From NCBI GenBank assembly GCA_021292105.1, contig CM037864.1, forward strand, positions 43,803,816 through 43,867,815: a DNA stretch of 64,000 nt, given 5' to 3'. Position 1 is the first letter of the stretch; each line of letters begins with the position of its first letter. Below are positions 3,808 through 63,490 of the stretch, one piece after another. This DNA comes from Anadara kagoshimensis (taxonomy: Eukaryota; Mollusca; Bivalvia; Arcoida; Arcidae). Both the position numbers and the translations under genes were made by a program. The notes beneath the pieces are model-generated. The model was not told where the DNA came from. It saw nothing but the letters and a program-made list of their open reading frames with translations, and did not search any database.

Positions 3808-5059
3808 TCATGATAATTTTATTAATTAACATGTCATACTCTCAAAAACTGTATCAGTATAGTCGATTGTTGCATCAACAAAACTATTTTGTGGCAAGTG
3901 TTGACTGGAATCAGAGAACGTTTTCTAAGTCAGATCATCATTTCATTGCGTGTTAGGTCATGAGTTAAAACCTCAAGCATGCCTTCCCCTGTGTGACATT
4001 CGCTGCATCACTTAATTGTCGTCTTATTGTTTGTAAACATACCGCGTCAAAGAAATGCTTACAAGACCCAAGACAGACGAGCGAATAAAAGTGTGTAGCT
4101 TTTTGTATATTTTGTGAGATACTTTTATTGATAATATTTTTTATCAAACATAAGCAAGTTTTTCAATAAGATTTTGTAATCTGAAAATGTTTCAATTTGC
4201 ACTTACCCCTATTGGATTTTCAGAAGCGCTATAGTCATTTTGTTTTAATAAAATTACGTAAATAAAGTCATAATATTTGCACGCGCCAATATTGGCTTAG
4301 TTTTTTTTCATATTGGCCCTATTAATCTAATATTAGCCCAGTTTTGGGAATTATTGGCGTGGCAGATTTTTACGTATTGTATCAATAACACATGTTGTTA
4401 ATAAATAATAATTATTAATAATATAATTATTAAACCGTAGTAGCAAAATAATAAAAGACAAGTAATGAGGATTATATCAGGCAGAAATCGGTCAAAATCC
4501 ACAGATCCAATATAGTGAACAACGTCAAAAACATGCCACCAACAAAGTTGTGAAAGGACATAACTTACCAAAGTGATCGAAAACTGAAGATGGAAGCATA
4601 GCGTTTAGAATTCAGAGATCTTTTTGGCACCAGCATCAGGATACAACGCAGCACAGATTTTCACAATTTTAGATTTTGATTACTTAAACAACTATATTTT
4701 ACTAACTGTTTCAATTTTTGTTTGCCGTGTTTTTGATACAACGGTGCTTCGTCATAGCAACACAAACATACAACCGTATAAAATAAAAACTAACCTGACT
4801 TTTGTATTCTGTATTCGAATTCTGTCTCTGAATCAGAAACTTATACGTTATATATAGAAATATTCCAATACAATGACGTACCAAACAAACTATTGTCTGT
4901 TAAAGTTCTGGTGTCATTATCTAGAACGACATGAGAGAAGACCGTCTATTCTGTTCCAATTCGATCTAGTACTATTGTTCAAGAATACAAACTAAGAATG
5001 TCTTCAACATATTGATGAGTTGTCACGCTATTTTATAATTAGAAGGTTTTTAATACAGT
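3808..5059. other. AT-rich stretch; degenerate relative of the 3.7 kb fold-back
   Basis: About 4280-4370 contains CGCCAATATTGG, CATATTGGCCC and ATTATTGGCG, which read as an eroded copy of the neighbouring fold-back element. Nothing else was recognised. Confidence 0.4.
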
Positions 5060-5222
5060 CGAGACCATCTACAGAGGCCACCGTCGGGATCCAGTAAAAG
5101 TGGTCTTTATGAGCAAGTAGTCCTTATATACAGGTTCACATAACATGAATAAAGAGCGAATGCGATAAAATTTTACTTAACTTTAAAGCAGCTCTGAACT
5201 TCATACAGAGGTAGCCTTTATG
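5060..5222 (+). repeat. Dispersed repeat, copy 1 of 2
   Basis: Shares ordered words with 23535-23690: CCTTATATACAGGTTCA followed by ATGAATAAAGA, then ACAGAGGTAGCCTTTAT against AGGTAGCCCTTAT. The two copies have the same orientation. Type of element unknown. Confidence 0.6.
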
Positions 5223-5249
5223 TTAAGTTTGAAAACATGTGTCGCTTGT

Positions 5250-5252
<3 letters not shown>

Positions 5253-5289
<37 letters not shown>

Positions 5290-5301
5290 TGTGTGTGTGT
5301 G
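5253..5301. repeat. (GA)n-(GT)n compound microsatellite
   Basis: About 17 GA units run directly into about 7 GT units. Confidence 0.97.
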
Positions 5302-5937
5302 GTTCAATTTGCATTACGCGTGCTTTAAGTTCAGCGGCGGTCCATATGGCTAATAGTCGATTTTGACTGTGTCTATACTACAGCTGTCAAATTATACACT
5401 ACACAAAATGAAATGTGTATTCACCTAGGACTTATTATACCTAGGACTCAGGCGAATACCTTGTTCTAGTCGATCAGTCGGTCTATTTATCAATGAATAT
5501 ACATTTTAAATAAAGATAACATATTTCATTACGCAAATAGTTTTCTGGGGCAAAGTTGGAGGTCTACTGCACTGCACCCGGAAAAATGTACAGAATTGGG
5601 CAACTTTCAGCCAATCAGAACAACTTCCTTGTTGCGCTTATCGTAATACAATTGTTAAAGCCTGTTTCAAAATTATCTCTAAAACCACGCCTTCCACCTG
5701 TCAATGTACACAACAACGCATTCTGTCCAGTTAACAAATCTCAAGTACGATTTTGACTGATGTAGGCCGTGCTATATTATCCTGTCGTCTAGAGGTTCAA
5801 ACTTCAAATCCCGGGGGAATAGATCTCTATGATTTTCCCGCCTAATTGGCATCTGAACTTATTAATAACAAGGCATGTGCAGAATTTTGAATATGTCTCA
5901 ATTCTTCATAACAACACGTTAAGCTTCGAGAGAATAC

Positions 5938-6042
5938 CGCCGGGTAGCTTAGTTGGTAGAATTTCCCGCTTGTATGCGTAAGACCCGGGTTCGAATGCCG
6001 GTTTCGGCCGCTGCATTGTTTTTCCTTTCATGTTACAAATGT

Positions 6043-6096
<54 letters not shown>
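5938..6096 (+). mobile_element. tRNA-derived SINE head followed by (TC)n
   Basis: Positions 5938-6010 resemble a tRNA with RNA polymerase III promoter boxes: box A TAGCTTAGTTGG at 5945-5956 and box B GGTTCGAATGC near 5988. The tail runs into a (TC)n tract at 6045-6096. The acceptor stem is imperfect and box B ends GC rather than CC, so this is a tRNA-like SINE head rather than a functional tRNA gene. The minus-strand (RE)n open frame here is the microsatellite read through. Confidence 0.65.
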
Positions 6097-6100
<4 letters not shown>

Positions 6101-6720
6101 GTTTAATATACACGTTTTATGAAACGGGACACTTCCAATATTAAAACATACATCAGCAGACTCAGACAAACTCGACACATGACACTACAGATAACGCTTC
6201 ACATCCAATTAGATTTACAAGTTTTTGTGGTTTATGTATAAGGAAAATAATTAGTAAATCATACAATTAATTTGTCTTAGCATTAGCTTAGTTCATCATT
6301 CATGGTTTCTTGGAAATTTGTACTACTTATAGATTGCACTTTGTTTTACTACTGACATTATTTTTTTTATATTTCTATATATTTTATATCAAACCAAATT
6401 TAATAAAATATTTATATGTGTCTGTGTTTTTTCAGTATTGGGTGACAGAAAAAATAAAACATTATTTAAGTTTCATTTATGCTACATATGATATCCGTTC
6501 AAAAAATCGAGAAGAAATATCCAGTTGCATATATTTTTTTATCTTATCAATAATGCTACAAATCTCCTATTACAAATTATTTAACACAATGAAAAAATGA
6601 TATTACTTAGAAAATAAACACAGATATAATAAAATAAAAACATTTCAAATATTTTCCATGTATAAAATTATATAAAACGTGTACTAAGCAATGGCTAGAA
6701 ACAATAAATAATTAATCACA
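6097..6720. other. AT-rich stretch, nothing recognised
   Basis: Very AT-rich sequence; the open frame at 6310-6600 is low-complexity Phe/Tyr/Ile codons with no family resemblance. Confidence 0.5.
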
Positions 6721-6757
6721 AAACACTTATAGCAAAAGAACTTAGGAAAAAGCGCAG

Positions 6758-6793
<36 letters not shown>

Positions 6794-6869
6794 TGCATGC
6801 CAAATTAACTTATAAGGTACTGCTTTCTATAAAACACTTATGGTAAAAGAAATTAGAAAAAGCACAGAA

Positions 6870-6900
<31 letters not shown>

Positions 6901-6960
6901 CATGTAATAATAATAATAAAACATTGTATACCAAAATGACTTATACGATACTATCAATAA
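6721..6960. repeat. Tandem duplication (about 111 bp) carrying (AAT)n
   Basis: AAACACTTATAGCAAAAGAA at 6721 recurs as AAACACTTATGGTAAAAGAA at about 6832. Each is followed by an ATA/AAT microsatellite (6758-6791 and 6870-6918) and then by a similar ACTTATA-containing segment. The microsatellite expanded independently in the two copies. Confidence 0.8.
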
Positions 6961-7504
6961 AACTGTTTCAGATATGAATTATAAAATGCAACAAGGGAAA
7001 TATGCACAAATAAGTTAAAAAATCATTGCAGTTAATTTTATCATAAAGATTTACTTTTAAATAAATCTAATAAAATACACAGAGGACATAATAATATTTC
7101 ATCGTCTATTTCACATATTAAAATAAACACATGACTTTGAATGGGCACTGAATATCGATAATGTGGTGACGGAAATTATCTCCGGTGATTTTGAGACATG
7201 TCGATTTTTTTTTACATCTAGAGGGTTTTTTAAAATAAAATATATATCTTGTATTAAATATCAGGTGCTACTTTTGAATATAATTATTTTATGCAAATGA
7301 CATAAAAACAATACTAGTATTTATAAAGCAACCAGTATGAAGCGTTTGATGTTTTCTTATATTGTCTGACATTTAACGAAATTTCATTTTCAAAATTATT
7401 TTCATTTTCACACCATTTTATTCAACGTACATGCACTACTGGCATGCGGAAGACAAAAATGCTCATGTAGCTAGATTTTGCGGTGCAATTCAGTCACATT
7501 TGTT

Positions 7505-7535
<31 letters not shown>

Positions 7536-8137
7536 ATATTTACAACAAAGATGTATCGGTTTCCCTTATTTTTGACTTATATTACTGAACAAAAATTGCC
7601 CATGACAAAGAGTCGTGTATAAAATTTCAGACCTCTCAAGTCTTTAGATCTCAGACAATAAAAAGTTCTAAACTGCACCATTTAACATTTATTATCACTT
7701 GAAAAGTTATATTATAGTCTTACTCTGCAATTTTTTCTGATAATGTTTTGTAGAGAAAGGGCAAACATCAAAAACTTTAATTTTTAATCTCAAGCCCTTC
7801 TAAACATAGATAGACCAACAACATTTCAATAAAATGTTTTAAAACAAATTTTACCCTGACGATTTTCATTTGCGTTCAAACTAAATAGGTTTCATTTATA
7901 TTATACAAACGCGTTTGTAGCACAATAACAATATTTATAGAATATAACAGATATTTATATACATAAAAATTGCCATTACATACTGTAAATCATAAAATTA
8001 ATGCGAGCAAGGGATTATAAAAATTATAGTATATGGTTATACACGAAAGGAGTTTCATAGTTTTATCCAGGCGTGATGAAAAAAAAATTATTCTAGATTT
8101 TATATCATTTGTTCCTTTCGAATTTCTATATAAATCG
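6961..8137. other. AT-rich stretch, nothing recognised
   Basis: Contains a short TA/TG microsatellite at about 7506-7536. No coding or RNA gene signal. Confidence 0.5.
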
Positions 8138-8682
8138 AACATAAACATACCAATCCATGTCCAAATCAAAATCTAAAAGCAAAAACTTTGAAAACTGGCA
8201 AAACACATTAACTTCCACCAGGGAAATGAGGTCAGGTGCTCCTGAAGGGTAAGCACCTTATGTTTAGCTAGCAACAACCGCCACGTGTGTAATAAAATCT
8301 CATATTATGCCAGTGTTAATTTTACAGCACTAGACGACCGTTTCGGAATACAATTCCTAATCAGTACGGCTTTGACCAAAATCGTGAAACCAATTTTTTT
8401 CCAAAGAGTTGAGAATTGAAAATGAAATGAGCATGGACTTTTGGACGAAATATTGTATTCAGAGACCCCATACTTATCAACAATATTGTGATGACAGCAA
8501 TAAAACTTGTCCTTAATAATCTTAGGCTTGCAGTACCACTGCGCCAACAAACTATGTGTAAAGCAGTTTGCTTTGTTGTATAAAATTCCTGTATAGGAAA
8601 CAAGCTCTATTGCTGCATAGGAAAGGTGGACAATAGAAAATTGAAGTCATCACCTTTCTCATACAGCTTGAAATGTGAAAAT
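8138..8682 (-). mobile_element. PLE-family fragment: RT C-terminus plus 3' UTR, with hammerhead-like insert
   Basis: Reading the minus strand, RT codons from about 8682 to 8440 (remnants of the SNIPASPAYGV and VDKYGVS region) lead into the 3' UTR. The 3' UTR ends at the family 3' terminus near 8138 (marks: CTTCCACCAGGGAAATGAGG, CCATGTCC in + orientation). About 100 bp at 8295-8402, absent from the other copies at this point, interrupts the UTR and contains a hammerhead-like motif. The frame is broken by stops and shifts. Confidence 0.8.
8310..8375 (-). ncRNA. Hammerhead-ribozyme-like motif, copy A
   Basis: On the minus strand the core reads CTGATTA (from 8364), then stem II GGAAT/ATTCC closed by a TGT loop, then GAAA (8344-8341), then a 3-bp stem III ACG/CGT with a 2-nt loop. 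Predicted cleavage follows GTC, between 8333 and 8332. Stem I can form a UA/UA pair, an internal loop and an outer CG pair. The invariant G8 of CUGAUGA is U here, so self-cleavage is probably lost. Minimal hammerheads with a very short stem III are known from Penelope-like elements. The type I assignment is my inference. Confidence 0.65.
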
Positions 8683-10535
8683 TAACTGAAATTAGAACTT
8701 AAAATATCAGTGACACATATTTTACAAACATTTGACCAATGATTATTACATTCAGACAGATATTCCAACCTGTTCGCCAAAAAGACTATTGTACAACTTG
8801 AAGGAATCGTCTAATAAAGTATTTTTACGGTTTGTAATATACTGGCACTATAAGAACAGGTTGAATGAATCTGATAGATAACGATGATCTTGTTTAGAGG
8901 TTTTAAAACTTGGAAATTTCCAATGTCTTGTGTATTTAAAGCCACAACAGCATTATTACAGCTATTCTATTCTTTTTGGTCTTTATATATGTAACTATAC
9001 TTTTTATAATTTAATCGTTCAATATATTCAAATATAGCAAATGTACTGCCGTATACCATTTTGTTTTGCATGTATTCAATTATAAAATTCAAAATTGGTA
9101 TATAAGTGCACATGTGTATAATATAGATAAATTCTACTAAGCGACTGGTGTTGAAATATCGCACATACTTACTCTCAAAAGGAATTTACGGATTTGCCAG
9201 AAAAGTTTAAATATGTAATGTTTTATTTACTGAAAATGAATAATTAAACAATTTGCATTCACATAGTTTACATACAAATGACAGACTTTGACCCTTAATC
9301 CGTGAATCACACAGGTCTAGTTGAATTTTAATTTCTACTGTTAACTTGTTCGAATCACGGAATTCAACTTTTTTTGTAAACTCTTTGCACTAAAATTAGA
9401 TAAAACAAACTATATGAAGATTTATAGCATGTGTTACAAAACATGTACAAAGTCGGTTTAAACAATATTTCTTCCTTCTTGTCACATTTGCAAATTTTTG
9501 AATTTTTATTTGAAATAAGTGTTAAAAATTTGCACAGTTTTTGCTAATTATTGAATTCCTTCATAAAAATGCGTCTAGTGCTACAGAATAAAGACAGACT
9601 TAGTAATTATTTCACATAAACCAGCTATAGCAAGAATATTGTAATAATAGTATTTTGCACAGATGGATTTCGTCACATTTAATATGGAAAAACTATTCAG
9701 GAACACATGTGACTTGAATATTAAATGTTTGTTCAAAGCTGGGCTTGAATCTTAAAGCAAGTGCTGCATACTACAGCAAAGTTTGCCTACATTAGATCAA
9801 CAAACAAAATCATTACTTAATAAATCATTCATTCTGAGATGCAGAAAAAAGCAGAAAAAAACTAATATTGCCCTAACTTCAGACGCAAAATAATAAAAAA
9901 AAAATTGACAAAAAACCCCAGAATTTAATCATTACTTAAACTATATTTTAATATTTATGTGGTAAATTGAACACCTGGTGTGAGTTTTTGAATACTGAAC
10001 ATATGTTTAAAATAAAAATCACGTATTCCTGTAAACAGTTTTTAAACAATCAAACATAAAATAAAAAGACAGTTCTTTCATAGGTTAACAATTATCTATT
10101 TTTGATTGTTCCTTAACAATCAACACATATCTCGGCTAATTTGTGATATGATGCTGTGAAGTCTATCCTCATGCCTTGTCATATTTATTTTACAATCAAA
10201 TTCATTATATTTTTTGGATTCTGACAACATAGATTTTTCCTTGGCATATAATTAAAAGTACAGTCACTCCTTGTCAATCCTTGTACATAAGATATGCTTT
10301 CTTAGTTTAATGAAAGTCTGTATTTTATATTCACAATAAGTCAAAAATGTTTTATTAAGCTTACACAGTGGAACCACGTGGTCGGATAAGCAGGAAAGGG
10401 TTTTTGGTTCGACATAGGTTGAACGATTAAAGGTAGATGATCATGTAATGAGAATTTACCTTGGATTTAACATTTGATGAGCTGACCCCCCCCCCTCTTA
10501 AAAGAGAAATTTTATAGTCTCAGATGCTTCCAATC
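8683..10535. other. AT-rich stretch, nothing recognised
   Basis: No gene or clear repeat. A short C-run lies at about 10487-10496. Confidence 0.5.
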
Positions 10536-10925
10536 AGTGAAACCGTGTAAGCACTTAACTGATGCTTTACGTCACCTAAATTTTCTAAGCATTTTACAGA
10601 TGCTTCACATAACTTAAAACCGTTTTAAGCACTGTACCAGTGCGACACGTCACTGAAATTGTTTAAAGCATGACGGATGACCAACGTCTCTTAAAATGTT
10701 TTAAGCACTGAACCGAACCGTTGCTTCATTAAAAACCGTGAAAAATACTGCATTAATACTCCACGCCACTTTAAACGTTTTAAAAGCACTTAACTGTTGC
10801 CTCACGTCACCAAAACCGTGATAAGTACTGAACTGACCACGTCACTAAAACCGTGATACACGTGATGCACCACACATTAACATCACTGAAACAGTCTTAG
10901 AACTGAACGGATGAGCATAAAACTA
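10536..10925. repeat. Degenerate minisatellite, unit about 40 bp, about 10 units
   Basis: The pattern TAAGCACT-GAACTG-ATGCTTCACGTCAC-TAAAACCGTT recurs roughly every 40 bp with substitutions and small indels. Divergence between units is high, so the array is old. Confidence 0.8.
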
Positions 10926-11379
10926 TTTCGAGATAGGGTACAAGTTTAATTTTTATGTTCAGCTGCACATGATTTCCTATTTCGTTGGCTTTTGTTCAGC
11001 CAGTCTTTGGATTTTCTTTCATTACAACAAGACTCTATTTAACGATTAAGTGCAATTATTAAAAATTTAAAAGTCAGAAAAACCAAGTACACAACACAGC
11101 ATGAAAAACAAGACATAAAATAAACACATGATATAAGTAATGAAAATGTTGTCGAATAAAACATGTGACTTTGGATTCTTAATAAATGAATTGTCAAAAT
11201 GGTATCCAGTGCAGGGTTTTTTTTAATTATTTATCTATATCATTTCACAACAGCACAAGCATAATACAACATAAAATACCTAATAAACAATAAAGCCAAA
11301 TTGAAATTGTTAAGACTAGTTCTACACTAGTATAAAAAGTTCAGTGTCTACAACACTACATTTATGTTGTTAAAAACCC
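10926..11379. other. AT-rich stretch, nothing recognised
   Basis: No gene or repeat recognised. Confidence 0.5.
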
Positions 11380-11637
11380 AGGCCCCAGTTTCATTCCTTA
11401 GCTAAGATTTTCCTTAACTTAAATTTAGCAATTTTTTGTGATCTCTTTTTGAAAATACTGCTGAATATTTTTGTCAAAACTAAATGCAAATGTTTTAATC
11501 TAGAAGTAATCTTAAAAATAACACCTTAAATTCCTCAATATCATGCTTGAAAATAAGAAAATTATAAAGGTTTGAAATTTTGCAAGATTTAAGTTAAGGG
11601 AAATCTGAGCTAAGGAATGATTGTGAAAGCGGGGCCT
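11380..11637. mobile_element. MITE with long terminal inverted repeats, 258 bp
   Basis: The left end begins AGGCCCCAGTTTCA and continues CCTTAGCTAAGATTTTCC. The right end is its near reverse complement and finishes AAAGCGGGGCCT. The inverted repeats run about 50 bp with small indels around an AT-rich centre. There is no coding capacity. A confident target-site duplication was not found. Confidence 0.85.
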
Positions 11638-12029
11638 GGACAGCCTTTACAGTGCGGCGTTTTTATTACTTTAGCAGAGCGTAGGAGTAAATGAAATAGC
11701 ATTGTAAGGCGTCTCTTCAACGTTGCAACAATTTTACGCAGACAACGGTAAAATCTACCAAAAACATATATTTTATAGAACCTTAATTATTATTTATGAA
11801 ACCAACCAGACTTGTGAAAGACATAGGTAAAGTGGACGTTTCTTTTTAGTTTTTTACAATATATCTTAATTCCTGTGTACAGGTAAGAGTAAATTCTTCG
11901 AACTTTTTTTCATTTGGCCCTTCCACGCCGCCGTATGAAATTACTACTCATCAAAAAAACAAACATTACAATCAACGGCCAAACCAATGTACTAAACCGA
12001 AATGAAAACGCTGAAGCTTACAATTTATA
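11638..12029. other. Unique sequence, nothing recognised
   Basis: No gene or repeat recognised. Confidence 0.5.
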
Positions 12030-12413
12030 TAATTAGTTTAAACATGTGAACTTCCACCAGAGAAGAGAGGAGATATGGATATATATATAGCTAGATGACC
12101 CAGAAGGAGGGCAAGCTCCTCCTGTTAAGAGCTGACTTCACAGACTACGTGTGTAATTCAAAAAGTAGGCATGGAAAGAACATGGAATTATGGGACGTAA
12201 AATATACCCAGTGTTATTTCGGATACAGTGACATCATACTGATTAACAATATTTTAATGACGGCCACAAAACTTTTTGAGGGTCTTGATAAGCATAGATC
12301 TTCAATATCCTTGCGTCAACAATGTATTTGTTAACACAATGCTTTGCTGTATAAAGTGCCCGTAGTGGGAACACGCTCTGAGCGTATTAAGTGTTAAATA
12401 AATACAACATTAG
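12030..12413 (-). mobile_element. PLE-family fragment: RT C-terminus plus 3' UTR
   Basis: The minus strand carries remnants of the RT segment that elsewhere reads RACSHYGDFVQ, the LLTQGY region and the 3' UTR. In + orientation the marks are CTTCCACCAGAGAAG and AACATGGAATTATGGGACGT. The terminal ~100 bp of the UTR is lost or eroded. No open frame survives. Confidence 0.75.
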
Positions 12414-14046
12414 CAGCAGAAGCATTCCTTAATAAAATTCCTTATAAGTAGTGTTACTAAATTTACATGTTATTATTTTTACTCAAGTGACAAGAATAAA
12501 ATGTTCATTTTAATCATAATATAATTTTTTAAGAACAAACTGCTTTTGAAGTCACTTTGTATTGGAATCTGAGACCCATAAAACTGAAAAAGCTACACGA
12601 CTTTAGAATATTTATAGAATTTAAAACAAAATAATAACTTTAAAAGAAAATAACCTACATGTATATCAAAAGGGTTGACTTGCATATCTCACATATCTTT
12701 AAATGTTGACTTAGCTTTCAAGTTATTTTATTGTTACTGCTTGATGTTGACTTGATGATGAAATGTTTACAGTACAGACCGGTCGAAAATTTAACACTCG
12801 ACAGCTTATCACACTTAACAGTGGCACATGGTAGAAATTAGAAAGTACTAGTGATTTATTCTACCTCGTTGTATTGAGAGGTATCAACTAAATTTGCTAG
12901 GAACTTTTATTAATTTAATGAATGGGTAATTTTTCATTTTAAACAAAAATATTTAAAATATATTCTAACGCTACATATTAGAACGCAATCTTTTTTTTTA
13001 AAAATAAAAATCTACAAATATATATAGTGTTAAATTCCCCTTACCTCTTAGTTTTGAAATATTATTAACAAAATCCACTAAGAACCATTATTTAATTACC
13101 GAATATACAGAATCATGATTAAGCTTTAAGCATGCGTAAGGAAAACGGAAATAAATTCTGATTAAAGATATGAATATATTAAAGACGGGCACACTAATTA
13201 CAGGTCCGGAATCAAAGGTGTATTGTTACTTAACATAGATAGCGGAAATAGCGGAAACATCGTCAGTGGGTGGTGCCTACGTACTGTGTTAATACACGTA
13301 TATAGCGTATAGTCAAACAATGATATCTGAATACACTATAATGTATTTATTAGTATGTAGATCATCAAAAGTTTATAAATAACGAGCTTCTGATATCATA
13401 TAGTTTAGGTGTGACAACAGGACATTAAAACTAGTTTCAAACTGTATATATGTAAATCTATTCTCATTAAGTTATTTTGTTCGCCGGAATATTATATTTT
13501 CCTGTTTTTGATTGCTTTTCTTATTTCCAAGTACGTGTTTTCAACTTCATAATTCTGTCTCATATATTCTATGCAAATGTATTTGGACAATAGCCAGAGC
13601 AATTATGAACAAACAATCAATATTTTATTTACTAATACAAATGATACTGAATTGAAGAACTCCTGGCATTGAATAAAAGGAAAACACTATGTACTGAAGA
13701 CCTGTGGTATCCAATTTAGAGACCAATATAATCCAATAGGATGAGCCTACCAATAGTATGTAAACCAAACCGTTGAAATGCTTTTTCTACTTATTTAATT
13801 TCTGTTTCGCTCAGCCGGAAGAGCAAAAATTGTCAGTTACAAATTCTTAGATGTATTTTAATAATTTTATAGGAAAAACGAACCATATCGAGGAATAAAG
13901 TATTTTTTATAAACCTGTGGGCAACCACAACGCAATTGCAACACAACAATTAAATTTTAACTATTTTAAGCCATTTGCTTGGATATTATTTGTATTTGTA
14001 TAATTTCCAAATCTCCTTATGAAAGACAATACAAATAGTCATGATT
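12414..14046. other. AT-rich stretch, nothing recognised
   Basis: No gene, RNA or clear repeat recognised. Confidence 0.5.
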
Positions 14047-24423: not shown

Positions 24424-25212
24424 GAACAAACATACTAATCCATGTCTGAATCACAATCCAGAACCAAAGTAAAAATTTTGGAACTGACAAGTTAGGTTAG
24501 ACACGTGAACTTCCATCAGGGAAGTGAGGACAGGTGCTCCGGAAGGATAAGCACCTCCTGTTCAGCCAGCCACACCCGCCACGTGTGTAATCAAATTTGT
24601 GTGAAAGGAACATGGAACTATGGAATGTCAAATATACCCAGGGCAATCCTGGACACATAGACTTAAAACTTATCAACAATACTGTGTTGACGGCCATAAA
24701 ACGTTTTCAGGGCCTTGATAAGCCTAGGTTTGTAATATCTCTGAGTCAACAATTTATTTGTAAGCAGCCTGCTGCGTTGTACAAAGTCCCTGTAGTGGGA
24801 ACAAGGTATATTGCTGCATAGAAAAGGAAAGTTGACAAAAAATAATTGAAGTCATAACGTTCAAATGTAGCCTTTCGTGGGCATAATAATTGAGGTATAA
24901 GTCTAAATATGAAGCAGAACTTAAGGAATCAGTCGTGTCTTTTATTTTAAGCTCACTAGAATAGATGACATTCACAAAGTCTCCAAATTTAGGATTGTTA
25001 AGAGATAGAATGCCATTTATATATCTGTATGTTGAGTTGAATGCTTCGGCGACAGTCTCCTCTCCAGATTTAACAAGGTTCTGCATAAATTCTGCTTCAT
25101 AAGAATAAAGAAACAAATCAGCAAGAAATGCTGCACAGTTTGTTCCCATTGGTATACCGATTGTTTGCTGAAAAACTATATTACAAAACACAACAAATAT
25201 GTTATCTATAAC
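24424..25212 (-). pseudogene. Longest PLE-family copy: RT palm to 3' terminus, inactivated
   Basis: On the minus strand the RT begins at about 25212 (frame DNIFVVF) and passes through QQTIGIPMGTNCA and LADLFLYSYEAEF to the region of the catalytic YIDD box. There this copy reads YING, losing both metal-binding aspartates. LSLNNPKFGDFVN and SASYLDLYL follow, then frameshifts. A deletion of about 55 bp removes the SPAYGVFVSQLIRY codons (at about 24808). The 3' UTR runs to the standard terminus near 24424. The RT segment is a remnant of about 145 codons. I infer a Penelope-like (possibly Naiad) RT from the IPMG and YIDD context and the lack of a downstream endonuclease. Class assignment without a search is uncertain. 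Confidence 0.85.
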
Positions 25213-25265
25213 ATATTATACCAGTTTTAATTTTATAGCACTAGACGGCCGTGTCGGAATACTTT
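25213..25265 (-). ncRNA. Hammerhead-like remnant, copy B
   Basis: It abuts the 5' end of the RT pseudogene in the same sense. Minus strand: the 3' half of stem II (ATTCC), GACA in place of GAAA, stem III ACG/CGT with a GC loop, and GTC (25246-25244), followed by TAGTGCTATAAAATTAA as in copy A. The CUGAUGA box and the 5' half of stem II are missing. Confidence 0.5.
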
Positions 25266-25767
25266 GCATGAGAGTGTATACCTTAGTTTTTGATGAATTT
25301 GAGATTTTAAAAATCTAATGCTATTAAATTTTGTACTGAGTGTTTTTAACCAATGTTCCTAGATAAATCCAAATGCGGAAATATATTACTCGAACAGATT
25401 TGTGATCAGTTCTTAAATTTAAGGCTATATATTGTGTTACGTCGAACAAAAGACTTAAATACTTGTACGTAAAATTAAATCATCATATGATAGAAAGAAA
25501 AGAAGTTCAAGTGTTTGTTTATGAACAAAATGTGATGTTTATATTCCATTGGTAATATTTCGCCTAGTAAAACTAAATATTGCAATTATTTTATTGCAGA
25601 AATAGATTATTGTAGAGCATGATATAAATAAGGATGTAATTATTTATTTTGCAATGAATCATTAAAAAGAAAACTGTAAATTATATTTAAGTATGATTAA
25701 ATGTTTTATGAAGTGTGATTTATTGATTGTGTAGGTGTGAGATAATAAACAAGTCATAATATTTACT

Positions 25768-48030: not shown

Positions 48031-48527
48031 AGTAATTTTCTTAAATAAGCAATCATCAGTGAAATATAATGCAACGGGTCGGTATTTTTTTCAAATCGTA
48101 TTCTCTGATGATAACATTTGTTAAATATGAAATTAGTTGAGACCGTTGGTCTGGTAAACAAGTTTTTAAGTACTGAATAATACTTAGCTGATAGACCTTT
48201 ATCCCACTAAACATTCGTTGGCAAATTTTTAAAAATGATTTTGCCGTTGGTTGGTTGTCCGCTCGAGTTTGGTTTATTGATGTCTGGCACCATAACGTTT
48301 TAACGACTGTGTGTTTTACTGAATGTTGTTTTAAATGATACAAAAAGGTTCTAGAGTTGAATTGGTTTACTGCTAGCTCGTGTGAGTTTTAACTTCAAAA
48401 AATAGCGTTTCTAAATATAACAAATCAATCAAAAGGAGTTTGTGCTTGTGAAATTGTTCACTTTATTGCATCAAAACGTTTCGTTTTTGGATATGTAAAG
48501 CGTTGTATTAATTCCTAAATAATCACG

Positions 48528-52189: not shown

Positions 52190-52304
52190 GTTTGGTTTGA
52201 TTGGTATAACGCCATATGCAAACCACTAACTTAGATATATTAGGTTAAATTTATTTTGATCCTGAGGATATTTTTTCAACTCCTTAAAAAATTTGGTTTC
52301 ACAA

Positions 52305-52375
52305 TTTTTATCTAAGGATTAATGATGAGTGATTGTATAACCGAACGGCCGTCTAGTGTTGTACAATTAACAGTG
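52305..52375 (+). ncRNA. Hammerhead-ribozyme-like motif, copy C
   Basis: ATGATGAG at 52322 (C3 of the box is A, but G8 and A9 are intact). Stem II is GTGAT/ATAAC with a TGT loop and one mismatch. CGAA (52342-52345) stands in place of GAAA, then stem III ACG/CGT with a GC loop, and GTC with predicted cleavage after 52353. Upstream, TCAACTCCTT and TTTGGTTTCACAATTTTT match the same positions next to copy A. Downstream, TAGTGTTGTACAATTAACAG also matches. The sense is the same as the RT fragment that starts about 300 bp later. Confidence 0.6.
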
Positions 52376-52674
52376 ATATATGTAATGCCAAAAGCAAGCT
52401 GGTGTTTAAGACATCACAGTGACATAGGGAATCAAACGGAATACATCAATAATATATTTCAATCTAACAAGAGATTCTAACAATATTAGGTGATCTGATA
52501 TCCAAAGTGATATTGATGAAGTCTATATAGATGATACATTGTATCAACTTTTTTCCAGAATTTATTTTGCTTAATTTTGTCACTTTGAACAACCGAAACA
52601 GACATATTGCATAGAGAACGTCAAATGAACCATTCATGAAATATAATTACAGTTATTAATCTAAAACAAAACAA

Positions 52675-56308: not shown

Positions 56309-56589
56309 GTAAGACTTCCAGTTGCGTCCTCACCAATTAAATTCTATGTAATTTGTTTGAAAAAATATTTTTCACAAAATGTTCAAAATAGATTGACTCC
56401 GTCATGTTAGGTTTTTACAGTTCAAATAAAACATTTCAGTTAAGGATTCAAAATGGAGTTTCCCCATTTTATTTTCAGCTATAGCGTTTATAAAATTCAT
56501 ATTCTATTATTTTATTACTAATGTCGTAATTGTGATATTTCAGCTTCTTACGTAAAATTTGGCACAGAAGGACTTGGTACTGGCTCACA

Positions 56590-57414
56590 ATGTTTTCTTT
56601 AGTAGCCTTTGTTTGGATGCTGAAATACCGGCCCAAACCTGAGAAGGACAATAGATACTCCATACCATTTCCTAAAGAACGTCATATCATGCTTAATGAA
56701 ACGGATGTAAAAAACAAAATTTTATTCATAATTGGGGATGTACATGGCTGTTTTGATGAACTGGTAGAGTTGCTGAACTTGGCAGAGAAAGAAGTACCGG
56801 GTAAACAATTATTGCCAATATTCGTAGGTGATTTAATAAATAAAGGGCCGCAAAATGTAGAAGTGTTACGGAAGGTACGGAGTATGGACGCTTACGTTGT
56901 CAGGGGTAACCATGAGGAGGTCGTACTTCGGGAAATTTTAAGACAAAAACTTGACGAATCTTATGAAAGCCAGTTTAAGTATAACTGGGCCAAAGAATTG
57001 ACTGATGAAGATATTACTTATTTACAAGAATTACCATACACCATATCAATCCCGTCATTCAATTCTATCATTGTGCACGGTGGGCTTGAACCGGAAGTGG
57101 AGCTTGAAGACCAGGATTTCAGAAATATGGTTTCAATGAGGAATCTAGAAAAACACGGCGATAAACTTGTTGCAACATCAAAAGTATTTAAAGAAGACAG
57201 CTTAGAGCCTGAATCGCCTCCATGGGGTTCAGTTTGGAAAGGCCCTGAACATGTATATTACGGACATGATGCTACAAGAAAATTACAGATCCATAAACAT
57301 GCAACAGGATTAGATACAGGGTGTGTTTATGGTGGTGAATTAACGGGGATTTTTCTAAATGGACCTAAAAAGATTATTTCTGTAAAAGCACGTGAAACTT
57401 ATAAACAACCTTGA
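56590..57414 (+). CDS. ApaH-like (ALPH-type) metallophosphatase of the PPP family
   Basis: Single open frame of 274 codons. The metal-binding signature is complete and in order: GDVHGC (49-54), GDLINKGP (80-87), GNHE (106-109), HGG (163-165) and GHD (225-227). The C-terminal GLDTGCVYGGELTGI box (240-254) follows. The second motif has the NKGP ending typical of bacterial ApaH and eukaryotic ALPH enzymes instead of the VDRG of Ser/Thr phosphatases. Relatives hydrolyse Ap4A-type dinucleotides, and trypanosome ALPH1 decaps mRNA; the substrate here is unknown. Residues 1-12 are hydrophobic (FSLVAFVWML) and followed by KYRPKPEKD, suggesting part of a signal anchor. The frame is open upstream to about 56536 and a 3' splice site (CAG at 56541-56543) precedes it, so the true N-terminus may lie in an earlier exon. 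The ATG at 56590 has A at -3. No AATAAA is obvious within 400 bp downstream. There are no frameshifts or lost ligands. Confidence 0.9.
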   Translation: MFSLVAFVWMLKYRPKPEKDNRYSIPFPKERHIMLNETDVKNKILFIIGDVHGCFDELVELLNLAEKEVPGKQLLPIFVGDLINKGPQNVEVLRKVRSMDAYVVRGNHEEVVLREILRQKLDESYESQFKYNWAKELTDEDITYLQELPYTISIPSFNSIIVHGGLEPEVELEDQDFRNMVSMRNLEKHGDKLVATSKVFKEDSLEPESPPWGSVWKGPEHVYYGHDATRKLQIHKHATGLDTGCVYGGELTGIFLNGPKKIISVKARETYKQP

Positions 57415-61171: not shown

Positions 61172-62115
61172 GATTCTTTGGTTCTTTGTTCATCGCTACA
61201 GTAATGCAAATATTATTAGGGTTAGGACCATACTTTTTACGTCCGTAAGACGTTCGTTGTACACAATATTTCCTAAAACTGGTGTCTATAATCTAAATAT
61301 GATGAATTAATCGTATTAATGTTTTATTGTGATGTTCTCATTGGGTTTTCCCATTAACCAAAGAAGTGTCTTAATTCTGGTGAACTTTTTGTATAATTCA
61401 GTCAATAAATCTGTTTTTGCTTAAAAAAATACAATGCAGTCTTTTGTAAAAAAAAAAATCTCTGAAGCAGACAGAGCATATTCTTTCTATTCCTCTAAAC
61501 GTAATATGATCGATTGCTCCAATAATCCATTAACTGTTGAAATATACAAAATCTTAGTGGTATGTATATCGAATCCGGGTTTCAAACACAGGTATAAAAT
61601 CCACATTCCTGTCATTGATGTATGTGATAGTTCTTTAAGCTACAGGATTTATTTGTTTTGTTTAAGAGCCGGATTAGCGCCGTTGTGACCTAGTTTGAAA
61701 TTAAGTTTTTTGACGTAATAACCGGATGAACAACAATCTTTTGACATGCTCTAATTACTATATATAAAAATATAGATGCCTTTTCCGCATATTCATCTGT
61801 TTAAAGTAGCGTATCAGAAAAATTGAAACAGTTTTTATGTCTGATATTTGTTTGAGATTCGCTTATGATTTTACTTAGTAGTGATTGGTTGATTAATATT
61901 GTTTCGATTATATTGCACTCTATGTCAAGATGTTGTCACTTAGATAAATATCGAGACAGTCCGTCTTGAAATGATGGCAAACGCCGTAATATATTGAGAA
62001 ACCCAATGACCAGCTTTCCATTTGAGCTGTTATTATTTTTGAATAATAAAAAATGATCACGTCTGAAAACGAATTTGTACCTTTTCCCGCTTTATAATTA
62101 TTCAGTCTAAACCCT
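61172..62115. other. Unique sequence, nothing recognised
   Basis: No gene or repeat recognised. Confidence 0.5.
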
Positions 62116-62185
62116 TTTTCATTTTGCAGCCCTGGTCTAGACGGTCGTTTCGAAATACAATTCCTAATCAGTTGTGTTGGATCAA
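62116..62185 (-). ncRNA. Hammerhead-ribozyme-like motif, copy D
   Basis: On the minus strand: CTGATTA (62171-62165), stem II GGAAT/ATTTC with a TGT loop and one G-U pair, GAAA (62151-62148), stem III ACG/CGT with an AC loop, and GTC (62142-62140). Predicted cleavage follows 62140. As in copy A, G8 is U. Similarity to copy A stops within about 3 nt after the predicted cleavage point: TAGACCAGG here against TAGTGCTGT in copy A. Confidence 0.62.
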
Positions 62186-62412
62186 ATTTGCGGGAATCGA
62201 AATATTTAATAGATGTATGTTGAAATTAGATAAAAGAAGGACCAAAAATTTATTTTACCACATCCACCTTAGGTAATACTTCGAACTACTGAGCATAGCT
62301 TAGTTTTTTGAGAAATTTCTAAATTTAAGAAACAGATAATTTTGATTAACAGTGTTTTGACACATGTCACTGATATACTTGTTTGTGTCTTGACGTTTTA
62401 ATTATTTCAACC

Positions 62413-62715: not shown

Positions 62716-62804
62716 GATTTAAAATGTTAAATAAGTAAATACAAAATAGCTGAAACACAGCTGAAGCAATACAAAACATCCTGATCTGCAACGTGATAAT
62801 TATA

Positions 62805-63490
62805 TTATCAAAAACAAACATACTAATCCATGTCCGAATCACAATCCAGAAGCAAAGTAAAAACTTTGGAACTGACAAGTTAGGTTAGACACGTGAACTT
62901 CCACCAGGGAAATTGAGGCCGGGTGCTCCGTAAGGGTAAGCACCTCCTGTTTAGCTAGCTACACCCGCCACGTTTGTAATTAAAATTGTGTGAAAGGAAC
63001 ATGGAACTATGAGACGTCAAATATATCCAGGTCAATTCTAGACACAGAGACATCAAACTTATCAACAATACTGTGATGACGGCCATTAAACGTTTTTTAC
63101 GGCCTTGATAAGCCTAGGCTTGCAATATCCCTGAGTCAACAATTTATTTGCAAGCAGCCTACTTTGTTGTACAAAGTCCCCGTAGTGGGAACAAGCTCTA
63201 CTATAGCGTATTAATTGGGAAGCAAATACACCATAAGCAGGAGAAGCAGGTATATTGCTGCATAAAAAAGAAAAGTTGACAATAGAAAAATTTAAGTCAT
63301 CACGTTTGTCATAAAGTTTCAAATGTAGCCTTTCGTGTGCATCATAATTCAGGTATAAGTCTGAATGAGGAATCAGTCGTGTCTTTTATTTCAAGCTCAC
63401 TAGGATCGATGGTATTTACATAGTCTCCAAATTTAGGATTGTTAAGAGACAGAACGTCATCTATATATTTTTATGTTGAGTTGAATGAAC
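62805..63490 (-). pseudogene. PLE-family copy retaining the YIDD box, RT C-terminus and 3' UTR
   Basis: On the minus strand the RT begins just before the catalytic box. YIDD is intact (codons 63467-63456) and continues VLSLNNPKFGD. After frameshifts, one frame reads MKLYDKRDD, NFSIVNFSFLCSNIPASPAY, GVFASQLIRYSRACSHYGDF and GYCKPRLIKA. The 3' UTR ends at the standard terminus near 62805 (CATACTAATCCATGTCC in + orientation). The 5' side is truncated at about 63490. It is nearly as well preserved as the 24.4-25.2 kb copy and retains the segment deleted there. Confidence 0.87.

Follow-up and report, generated by a model that had tools for sequence, protein, structure and literature searches.

What is a hammerhead-like ribozyme motif doing inside the 3′ end of a Penelope-like element (PLE) in the bivalve Anadara kagoshimensis? 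The locus lies in a 64,000-nucleotide stretch of contig CM037864.1 (assembly GCA_021292105.1, positions 43,803,816 to 43,867,815), here called the window, which we analyzed together with a genome search covering 1.115 Gb in 36 contigs. An earlier sequence-only reading had drawn a hammerhead-like motif with all of its helices (a CTGATTA box, a 5-bp stem II with a TGT loop, and a 3-bp stem III), placed it in a block inserted into the PLE copy in the same sense, and set it against the hammerheads known from other PLEs. We traced the same pairing on the minus strand, where the motif can be drawn as a type I hammerhead over 8383-8318 (Table 1) with a predicted cleavage point between 8333 and 8332.

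Table 1. Coordinates of the focal hammerhead, the surrounding PLE, and retrozyme copies in the window.
Feature	Position	Strand	Basis or detail
Upstream-in-sense PLE piece: C-terminal coding end of the RT, decayed	8446..8676	-	tblastn, RT aa 353-369 and 396-448; R 15-88 and 141-296
Downstream-in-sense PLE piece: 3′ UTR to PLE 3′ end	8134..8297	-	R 357-534, 78%
Reference PLE 3′ end without the block	62790..63490	-	Alignment with window copies
5′-truncated retrozyme monomer	8295..8415	-	A 100-221, BLAST 86%; R1 8296-8391
Decayed type I hammerhead	8318..8383	-	Stems I, II and III, outer stem I helix GATTTT/AAAATT; sequence, R1 alignment
Stem I 5′ arm	8370-8365	-	GCCGTA
CTGATTA box	8364-8358	-	Read from sequence
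Stem II GGAAT/ATTCC, loop TGT	8357-8353 and 8349-8345	-	5 bp
GAA	8344-8342	-	Read from sequence
Stem III ACG/CGT, 2-nt loop	8341-8339 and 8336-8334	-	3 bp
C17	8333	-	Read from sequence
Stem I 3′ arm	8332-8327	-	TAGTGC
Internally deleted retrozyme copy	25207..25310	-	R1 and BLAST; 3′ end abuts a PLE RT fragment
Second decayed retrozyme copy, stem II degraded	52203..52387	+	R1 and BLAST
Third decayed retrozyme copy, also CTGATTA	62108..62328	-	Descriptor, R1 and BLAST

The G8 position (8359) is indeed a T (U in RNA), as had been noted; the claim that this was the sole core defect left out stem I, in which two of the six pairs are mismatched (C-T and G-G). Because of the G8-to-U change and the broken stem I pairs, the focal hammerhead is probably dead. 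Its minimum free energy (MFE) fold lacked stem I, and two consensus-like copies, folded likewise, formed stems I and II but no stem III. Folding energies were unremarkable (focal copy, z −0.3; consensus-like copies, z −0.6 and −0.8); a fourth stretch in the same folding set lacked the 3′ half of the ribozyme.

We then asked how specific the motif is. The descriptor of the sequence-only reading, which allows any base at position 8, matched the window twice (8364 and 62171, both on the minus strand), each time in a member of the retrozyme family described below, and gave three matches in total over 100 dinucleotide shuffles of the window. A strict descriptor (G8, stem I of at least 5) found nothing in the window, and a site at 48059, caught only by a looser descriptor, was set aside as spurious. 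In the window and the focal 700 bp, Rfam reported no hammerhead either at the gathering score or with the limit relaxed to E 10, none in 18 relative loci at the gathering score, and none in two consensus-like loci at E up to 10; RF00163 returned nothing over the whole genome, but its controls gave no match either, which leaves this search uninformative. The sequence-only reading had staked its claim in part on a covariance-model hit. Such a hit is missing for the Rfam models; a model built from the family itself (R1, 52 rows, with the focal copy and its segmental duplicates left out) scored focal positions 8296-8391 at 103.7 bits (E 1.8e-20). A chance likeness to a hammerhead, for which the wrong core base, the broken stem I, the three shuffle matches and the failure of Rfam might speak, is refuted by this score and by the perfect core in homologous copies at thousands of loci, and retains next to no probability.

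A genome search with window positions 8200-8500 gave 41 matches with the best 40 of 6,690 candidates scored. Three of the matches were the focal locus and its segmental duplication, and most of the others spanned only about 8295-8415. The consensus of 39 aligned copies, five rows of which derive from the focal locus and its duplicates, is GCACTA, CTGATGA, GGAAT-TGT-ATTCC, GAA, ACG-GC-CGT, C, and TAGTGC, with an outer AATTTT/AAAATT helix. It is predicted to form a type I hammerhead with a canonical core and three helices, and both a stem I internal loop and the TGT loop II are present. Exact matches to the 32-nt core number 3,061 in the genome (1,592 forward and 1,469 reverse), and a reversed-pattern control gave 0. 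Core conservation was 95.8% versus 88.7 and 89.4% in the flanks, a comparison biased by the fact that the rows from contig C1 were picked by their exact 32-nt core. No covariation beyond that of shuffles was seen in the hammerhead helices within the family (1 pair, a value reached by 369 of 500). The 4 most divergent of 56 hammerhead copies were dropped from the alignment A1.

The family is also arranged in tandem. In one locus (L023), a 339-bp unit is repeated head to tail 2.7 times at 98%, another (L027) has a repeat period of 337 bp, and C3:19505113-19508911 is a tandem array with at least 12 matches. We divided the unit into a part A of about 221 bp, which carries the ribozyme, and a linker B of about 118 bp. 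A 339-bp unit found in arrays, with 3,061 dispersed cores, falls within the range expected of tandem repeats of 170-400 bp present in many dispersed copies. The family agrees with the non-LTR retrozymes that Cervera and de la Pena described (excerpt of PMC7229834) in unit size, tandem arrangement, number of copies and ribozyme class, and on these sequence features we classify it as a metazoan-type non-LTR retrozyme. At L023:199-275 there is also a near-perfect AT-rich foldback, perhaps a MITE, whose match to the miRNA precursor family MIR6274 is below the cut-off (E 0.001).

Individual copies have a more regular 3′ end than 5′ end. We inspected 20 copies on C1, chosen by the exact core and including two pairs with near-identical flanks: 16 stopped matching at A 219-221 with other flanking sequence beyond, 1 entered B and 3 stopped earlier, and the 5′ ends were variable. 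With a joined query that runs from the retrozyme into the PLE, 57 of 58 non-self rows ended at query positions 116-126, the end of the retrozyme. In 20 of 20 C1 copies the sequence was continuous across the ribozyme cleavage site, and their template was therefore religated or uncut.

G8-to-U recurs in divergent retrozyme copies (L021, L004:1526-1621, L026, L055:1850-1945 and window 62108-62328), some of which also have the stem III variant GGTC or AGTC; these copies are possibly a dead subfamily. Within the window, faint similarity of the focal monomer may reach about 8443. Besides the focal copy, R1 reported the three other decayed window copies of Table 1 at E 1.1e-12 to 5.5e-5 and three weaker matches at E 0.11 to 0.94. 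Window positions 3935-12791 recur in inverted orientation as a segmental copy some 0.73 Mb away (G000:C8:43080500-43090400, L029) at 93-96% identity, inside which a 1.13-kb piece carrying the hammerhead block is tandemly duplicated. Two open frames elsewhere in the window were also recorded: a 292-aa frame at 56536-57411 (+) with a calcineurin-like phosphoesterase domain (E 1.7e-16), and a 270-aa frame of similar repeats at 537-1346 (-; HESFHLLVQRFLRSPVITIACS), a minisatellite read as a frame, whose Pfam matches were sub-threshold only.

Next to the retrozyme stands the PLE. PLE pieces flank the block on both sides in the same sense, bearing out the proposed insertion into the PLE 3′ end. The order is R 15-296, retrozyme A 100-221, R 357-534, and the insertion site lacks PLE positions R 297-356 (about 60 bp). 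Both flanks, 8134-8297 and 8460-8676, are parts of a repeat with many copies in the window; in the genome it gave 9,197 first-look candidates, 40 of which were scored. Pfam found no match in the window's own short PLE frames (4 proteins). Other PLE copies matched RVT_1 at E 1e-5, below the Pfam curated cut-off, and L052 matched GIY-YIG at 23.4 bits (cut-off 22.6), upstream of the RT half; the RT of L053 found no match among PDB sequences. From the RT and GIY-YIG of its relatives, we read the surrounding element as a PLE. It is apparently one of the permuted kind, the order of GIY-YIG before RT being known from L052 only. We take PLEs with an N-terminal GIY-YIG to be of the Naiad/Chlamys type, and the host element resembles these in its RT, in having GIY-YIG before RT (L052) and in its tandem copies.

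Could the hammerhead belong to the PLE, with the block an ancestral part of the 3′ UTR? Type I hammerheads have been reported in PLEs (excerpt of PMC7229834; PMC11167929), and five loci join the block to the PLE 3′ UTR in sense: the focal locus, L030/L033 (counted once), L031, L032 and L034. In addition, the window copy at 25.2 kb is joined to RT coding sequence. However, six other PLE copies in the window cross the insertion site without the block in the alignment, and the junctions lie at differing PLE positions from locus to locus. Among 20 exact-core copies with 452 bp fetched for each, the PLE 3′ end was joined in sense in 0 and in antisense in 2, and the joined query did not recover the focal junction at any further locus among the best 40 of 4,245 candidates. 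Nor did the PLE 3′ UTR itself yield a hammerhead, either by descriptor in 10 PLE loci (L048-L057), a search that a minimal form without helix III would escape, or by Rfam in the L052 UTR. We therefore consider it very improbable that the ribozyme is native to the PLE; the block is a decayed copy of a separate, non-autonomous retrozyme present in thousands of copies. The sequence-only reading had also let its case depend on the block recurring in other copies of the family. It recurs in thousands of copies of the retrozyme family and is not a fixed part of the PLE.

A second possibility is that the joins at L031, L034, L030/L033 and window 25.2 kb, and the focal locus with them, arose by template switching during reverse transcription of the PLE. 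At these four joins, PLE sequence turned up on one side only, in sense and downstream of the retrozyme 3′ end; at 25207-25310, for instance, the 3′ end is directly joined to RT coding sequence of the same sense, and no PLE was found immediately upstream. But PLE flanks the retrozyme on either side at the focal locus and at L032, and all of the joins except that at 25.2 kb were picked by a query holding both parts. Suggestive as the four joins are, template switching is an unlikely explanation here.

In L032, another PLE copy is interrupted in the same region by a more complete retrozyme (A 8-221), which PLE sequence flanks on each side. The internal UTR position had been called unusual: the nesting in the PLE 3′ end holds, and L032 provides a like case in the same part of the element. 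A 6-bp PLE overlap at L032 was not counted as a target-site duplication, as it mostly coincides with the retrozyme's own end. Because PLE lies on both sides, six window copies are without the block and L032 is similar, we interpret the focal block as a nested insertion: almost certainly, to judge from the alignments, a 5′-truncated, decayed non-LTR retrozyme in the 3′ end of a dead GIY-YIG PLE. Taken alone, the focal locus is nothing out of the ordinary: the element is common, and this copy of it is probably dead.

To relate the retrozyme to the PLE more closely, we compared the unit, B plus A, with three PLE stretches. There was one significant match, between B 7-60 and the PLE 5′ end at L052 (E 1e-6), in a stretch that directly precedes the first ATG of the PLE frame; elsewhere in the compared PLE stretches there was no significant match to the unit (best E 0.12). 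The BLAST score of this match was 26, versus a maximum of 22 over 1,000 dinucleotide shuffles of the unit. A second null, drawn from 1,000 random pieces of the window, could not be used because PLE copies of the window supplied its top listed scores. A 3′ tail that seemed common to the retrozyme and the PLE (10 of 13 letters by eye) was discarded, as 1,855 of 5,000 random windows scored equally.

The matching stretch is predicted to fold into a hairpin of 53 nt, and a nearly identical fold was predicted independently for the retrozyme and the PLE. Fold z scores were −3.2 and −5.7 for PLE sequences and a modest −1.6 and −2.0 for retrozyme sequences. In a 221-nt stretch the hairpin was predicted to form alongside hammerhead stems I and II (z −1.2). 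Single-copy folds of L052, L108 and L055 share the inner hairpin and add 7, 5 and 6 pairs outside it, respectively, and that of L094 is a close variant. We took 20 retrozyme linkers and 20 PLE 5′ ends, the latter from the best 40 scored and mostly more divergent; the 20 PLE sequences align, with L086 lacking part of one arm. L094 and L095 represent a PLE variant with the hairpin present and a different preceding sequence, and the L094 fold is the most stable of the four (z −5.7).

Sequence differences within the hairpin respect its pairing. Between typical retrozyme and PLE sequences, 39 of 53 positions are identical and all 19 pairs are kept in both. Six of the seven differences at paired positions make up three double substitutions (4-50, 9-42 and 25-30), and the remaining one changes G-U to A-U. 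Random placement of 14 substitutions kept all pairs in 8 of 200,000 trials, a figure favored by the fact that the tested structure was derived from one of the compared sequences. Across 45 rows (33 distinct) there were 43 cells with both sides changed and the covariation score was 0.222; each value was reached by 0 of 500 shuffles and exceeded every slid version of the structure, the 43 cells amounting to about three events that separate the retrozyme and PLE classes in a single split. Two other counts did not stand out: 4 pairs with a change on both sides (reached by 220 of 500 shuffles) and 19 pair types (324 of 500). The RNAalifold consensus was modest, with 13 pairs, 3 of them with both-side changes, at −4.98 kcal/mol.

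We also searched for the hairpin with a covariance model, R2, made from 18 PLE hairpins after 3 of 21 had been dropped (two near-copies and one deletion). We ran R2 on 27 sources that total 240,881 bases and were selected so that retrozyme loci were among them. At E up to 10 it gave 14 matches: one was L052, a training PLE, and 13 were retrozyme linkers, of which 12 scored E 1e-17 to 2.4e-4 and one, a partial linker at L016, E 1.9. Outside PLEs and retrozymes, these 240,881 bases gave no match. A pattern for the apical part of the hairpin matched the genome at 1,545 sites (832 and 713; control 0), and among the first 100 matches listed each of the two loop types occurred, as did intermediates. 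In viral contigs a scan for the hairpin gave 0. Retrozyme copies with a hairpin between the common retrozyme form and the PLE form lie at L055:1294-1348 and 1621-1675 (45.3 and 61.5 bits with R2) and perhaps mark an older subfamily. At C1:40869375-40869518 and C2:10909090-10909983, PLE-type hairpins are repeated 114, 324 and 540 bp apart, a spacing that would suit tandem repetition of the PLE 5′ end by itself.

We next measured where insertions end relative to the hairpin. Exact anchors were used and copies with altered anchors were dropped, so the counts of 27 retrozyme and 27 PLE ends describe a subset, and some early stops are substitutions rather than ends, as in the focal copy and the tandem PLE copies L081, L083, L084 and L093. 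Of the 27 distinct retrozyme ends, 18 lay 5-8 nt before the hairpin, 8 lay 9-12 nt before it and 1 continued. For the PLE, 13 ends were at 5-8 nt, 1 was at 4 nt, 11 were at 10-16 nt and 2 continued, placing 14 of 27 outside the 5-8 nt interval. The most frequent end was 6 nt before the hairpin in the retrozyme and 7 nt before it in the PLE.

We propose that the retrozyme is probably moved by the PLE protein, by way of the linker hairpin. Intact retrozyme loci would be transcribed, and the hammerhead in A would cut tandem transcripts into 339-nt units that could then be ligated into circles; for other retrozymes, tRNA ligase is the favored ligating enzyme (excerpt of PMC7229834). The PLE protein would bind the 53-nt hairpin in linker B, just as the PLE has the same hairpin at its own 5′ end, and target-primed reverse transcription would begin 5-8 nt 5′ of the hairpin. 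Copying would run through A, with the ribozyme, then through B, and sometimes round the circle again. Priming and copying of this kind would yield a nearly fixed 3′ end, variable 5′ truncation and B-A-B-A arrays. In the retrozyme, the hairpin comes after A in the RNA only if the transcript is circular or tandem. We infer all of these molecular steps from sequences, predicted folds, copy numbers and end positions.

A precedent for such a signal comes from PAc, a PLE of the anole. Its reverse transcription starts inside the RNA, at ORF positions +111-118, and requires RNA to +172; the authors hypothesize that these initial 172 nt also contain the motif bound by the protein (PMC11167929). The hairpin here would, by analogy, occupy the equivalent place, 3′ of the start and within about 60 nt. 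Ribozyme mutants of PAc still inserted in vitro (PMC11167929), and cleavage may therefore be dispensable for insertion itself.

A further alternative is that the hairpin is a promoter, translation or processing element common to both elements, or a relic, now functionless, of a retrozyme derived from a deleted PLE. The hairpin does sit just before the first ATG of the L052 PLE frame, where a promoter or translation element could lie, and a 2024 review suggests that retrozymes arose by reduction of PLEs (excerpt of PMC11722881). Against this, the paired changes point to selection on the RNA fold, the insertion ends of both elements lie most often a few bases before the hairpin, and the rest of the compared PLE stretches lack a significant match to the unit. 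We regard this alternative as unlikely but worth keeping in view. We infer instead that the hairpin would be the recognition site of the PLE protein. On balance, and somewhat cautiously, we favor the specific proposal that the linker hairpin is a PLE RNA recognition signal located 5-8 nt 3′ of the reverse transcription start in both elements, that the circles serve the PLE as templates, and that the partner enzyme of the retrozyme is thereby identified. Taken as a whole, an account that joins a nested, decayed retrozyme to mobilization by the PLE through the hairpin very likely explains the locus.

The family fits what is known of metazoan non-LTR retrozymes, which likewise have type I hammerheads, thousands of copies, tandem arrangement and co-resident PLEs (Cervera and de la Pena 2020, excerpt of PMC7229834). 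The nearest in size and copy number, compared by its description in the same excerpt, is the retrozyme of Mytilus galloprovincialis, with 350-390 bp and about 5,000 copies versus about 340 bp here. The present family differs from this description in having a hairpin in common with a co-resident PLE; the focal copy is in addition probably dead. PLEs have been considered strong candidates for moving animal retrozymes on account of their type I hammerheads, tandem copies and co-occurrence (excerpt of PMC7229834), and this mobilization has been proposed from common traits and co-occurrence (excerpts of PMC7761336 and PMC11722881). In the excerpt drawn on here, a 2020 review describes metazoan retrozymes as having no conserved motif from which a partner could be deduced (PMC7761336). 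PAc, a Poseidon PLE of Anolis, resembles the present system in having a hammerhead near the unit junction, an internal start of reverse transcription and a need for RNA 3′ of that start; unlike the PLE here, it has a C-terminal GIY-YIG, and its main text gives no hairpin of this sequence (PMC11167929). The host PLE differs from the retrozyme in being autonomous and in yielding no 3′ UTR hammerhead, and only the 53-nt hairpin is common to the two.

The arrangement recalls the sharing of tails between SINEs and LINEs, in which a parasite borrows the RNA signal that its partner's enzyme reads. In SINEs and LINEs the common part is the 3′ tail, whereas here it would lie 3′ of the putative priming site, and so in a circle or tandem transcript rather than at the end of a single copy. 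The literature searched, a scope that leaves aside the 2014 PLE-hammerhead and 2021 permuted-PLE papers, gave no report of such a retrozyme-PLE hairpin. The element itself is of a known kind, and the hairpin and end spacing are not in print as far as the searched literature goes. For the mobility of animal retrozymes, a structured motif that also occurs in one resident PLE, and lies about equally far from the insertion ends in both elements, offers a question that can be tested at the bench. The hairpin also suggests where PLE proteins may hold their RNA.
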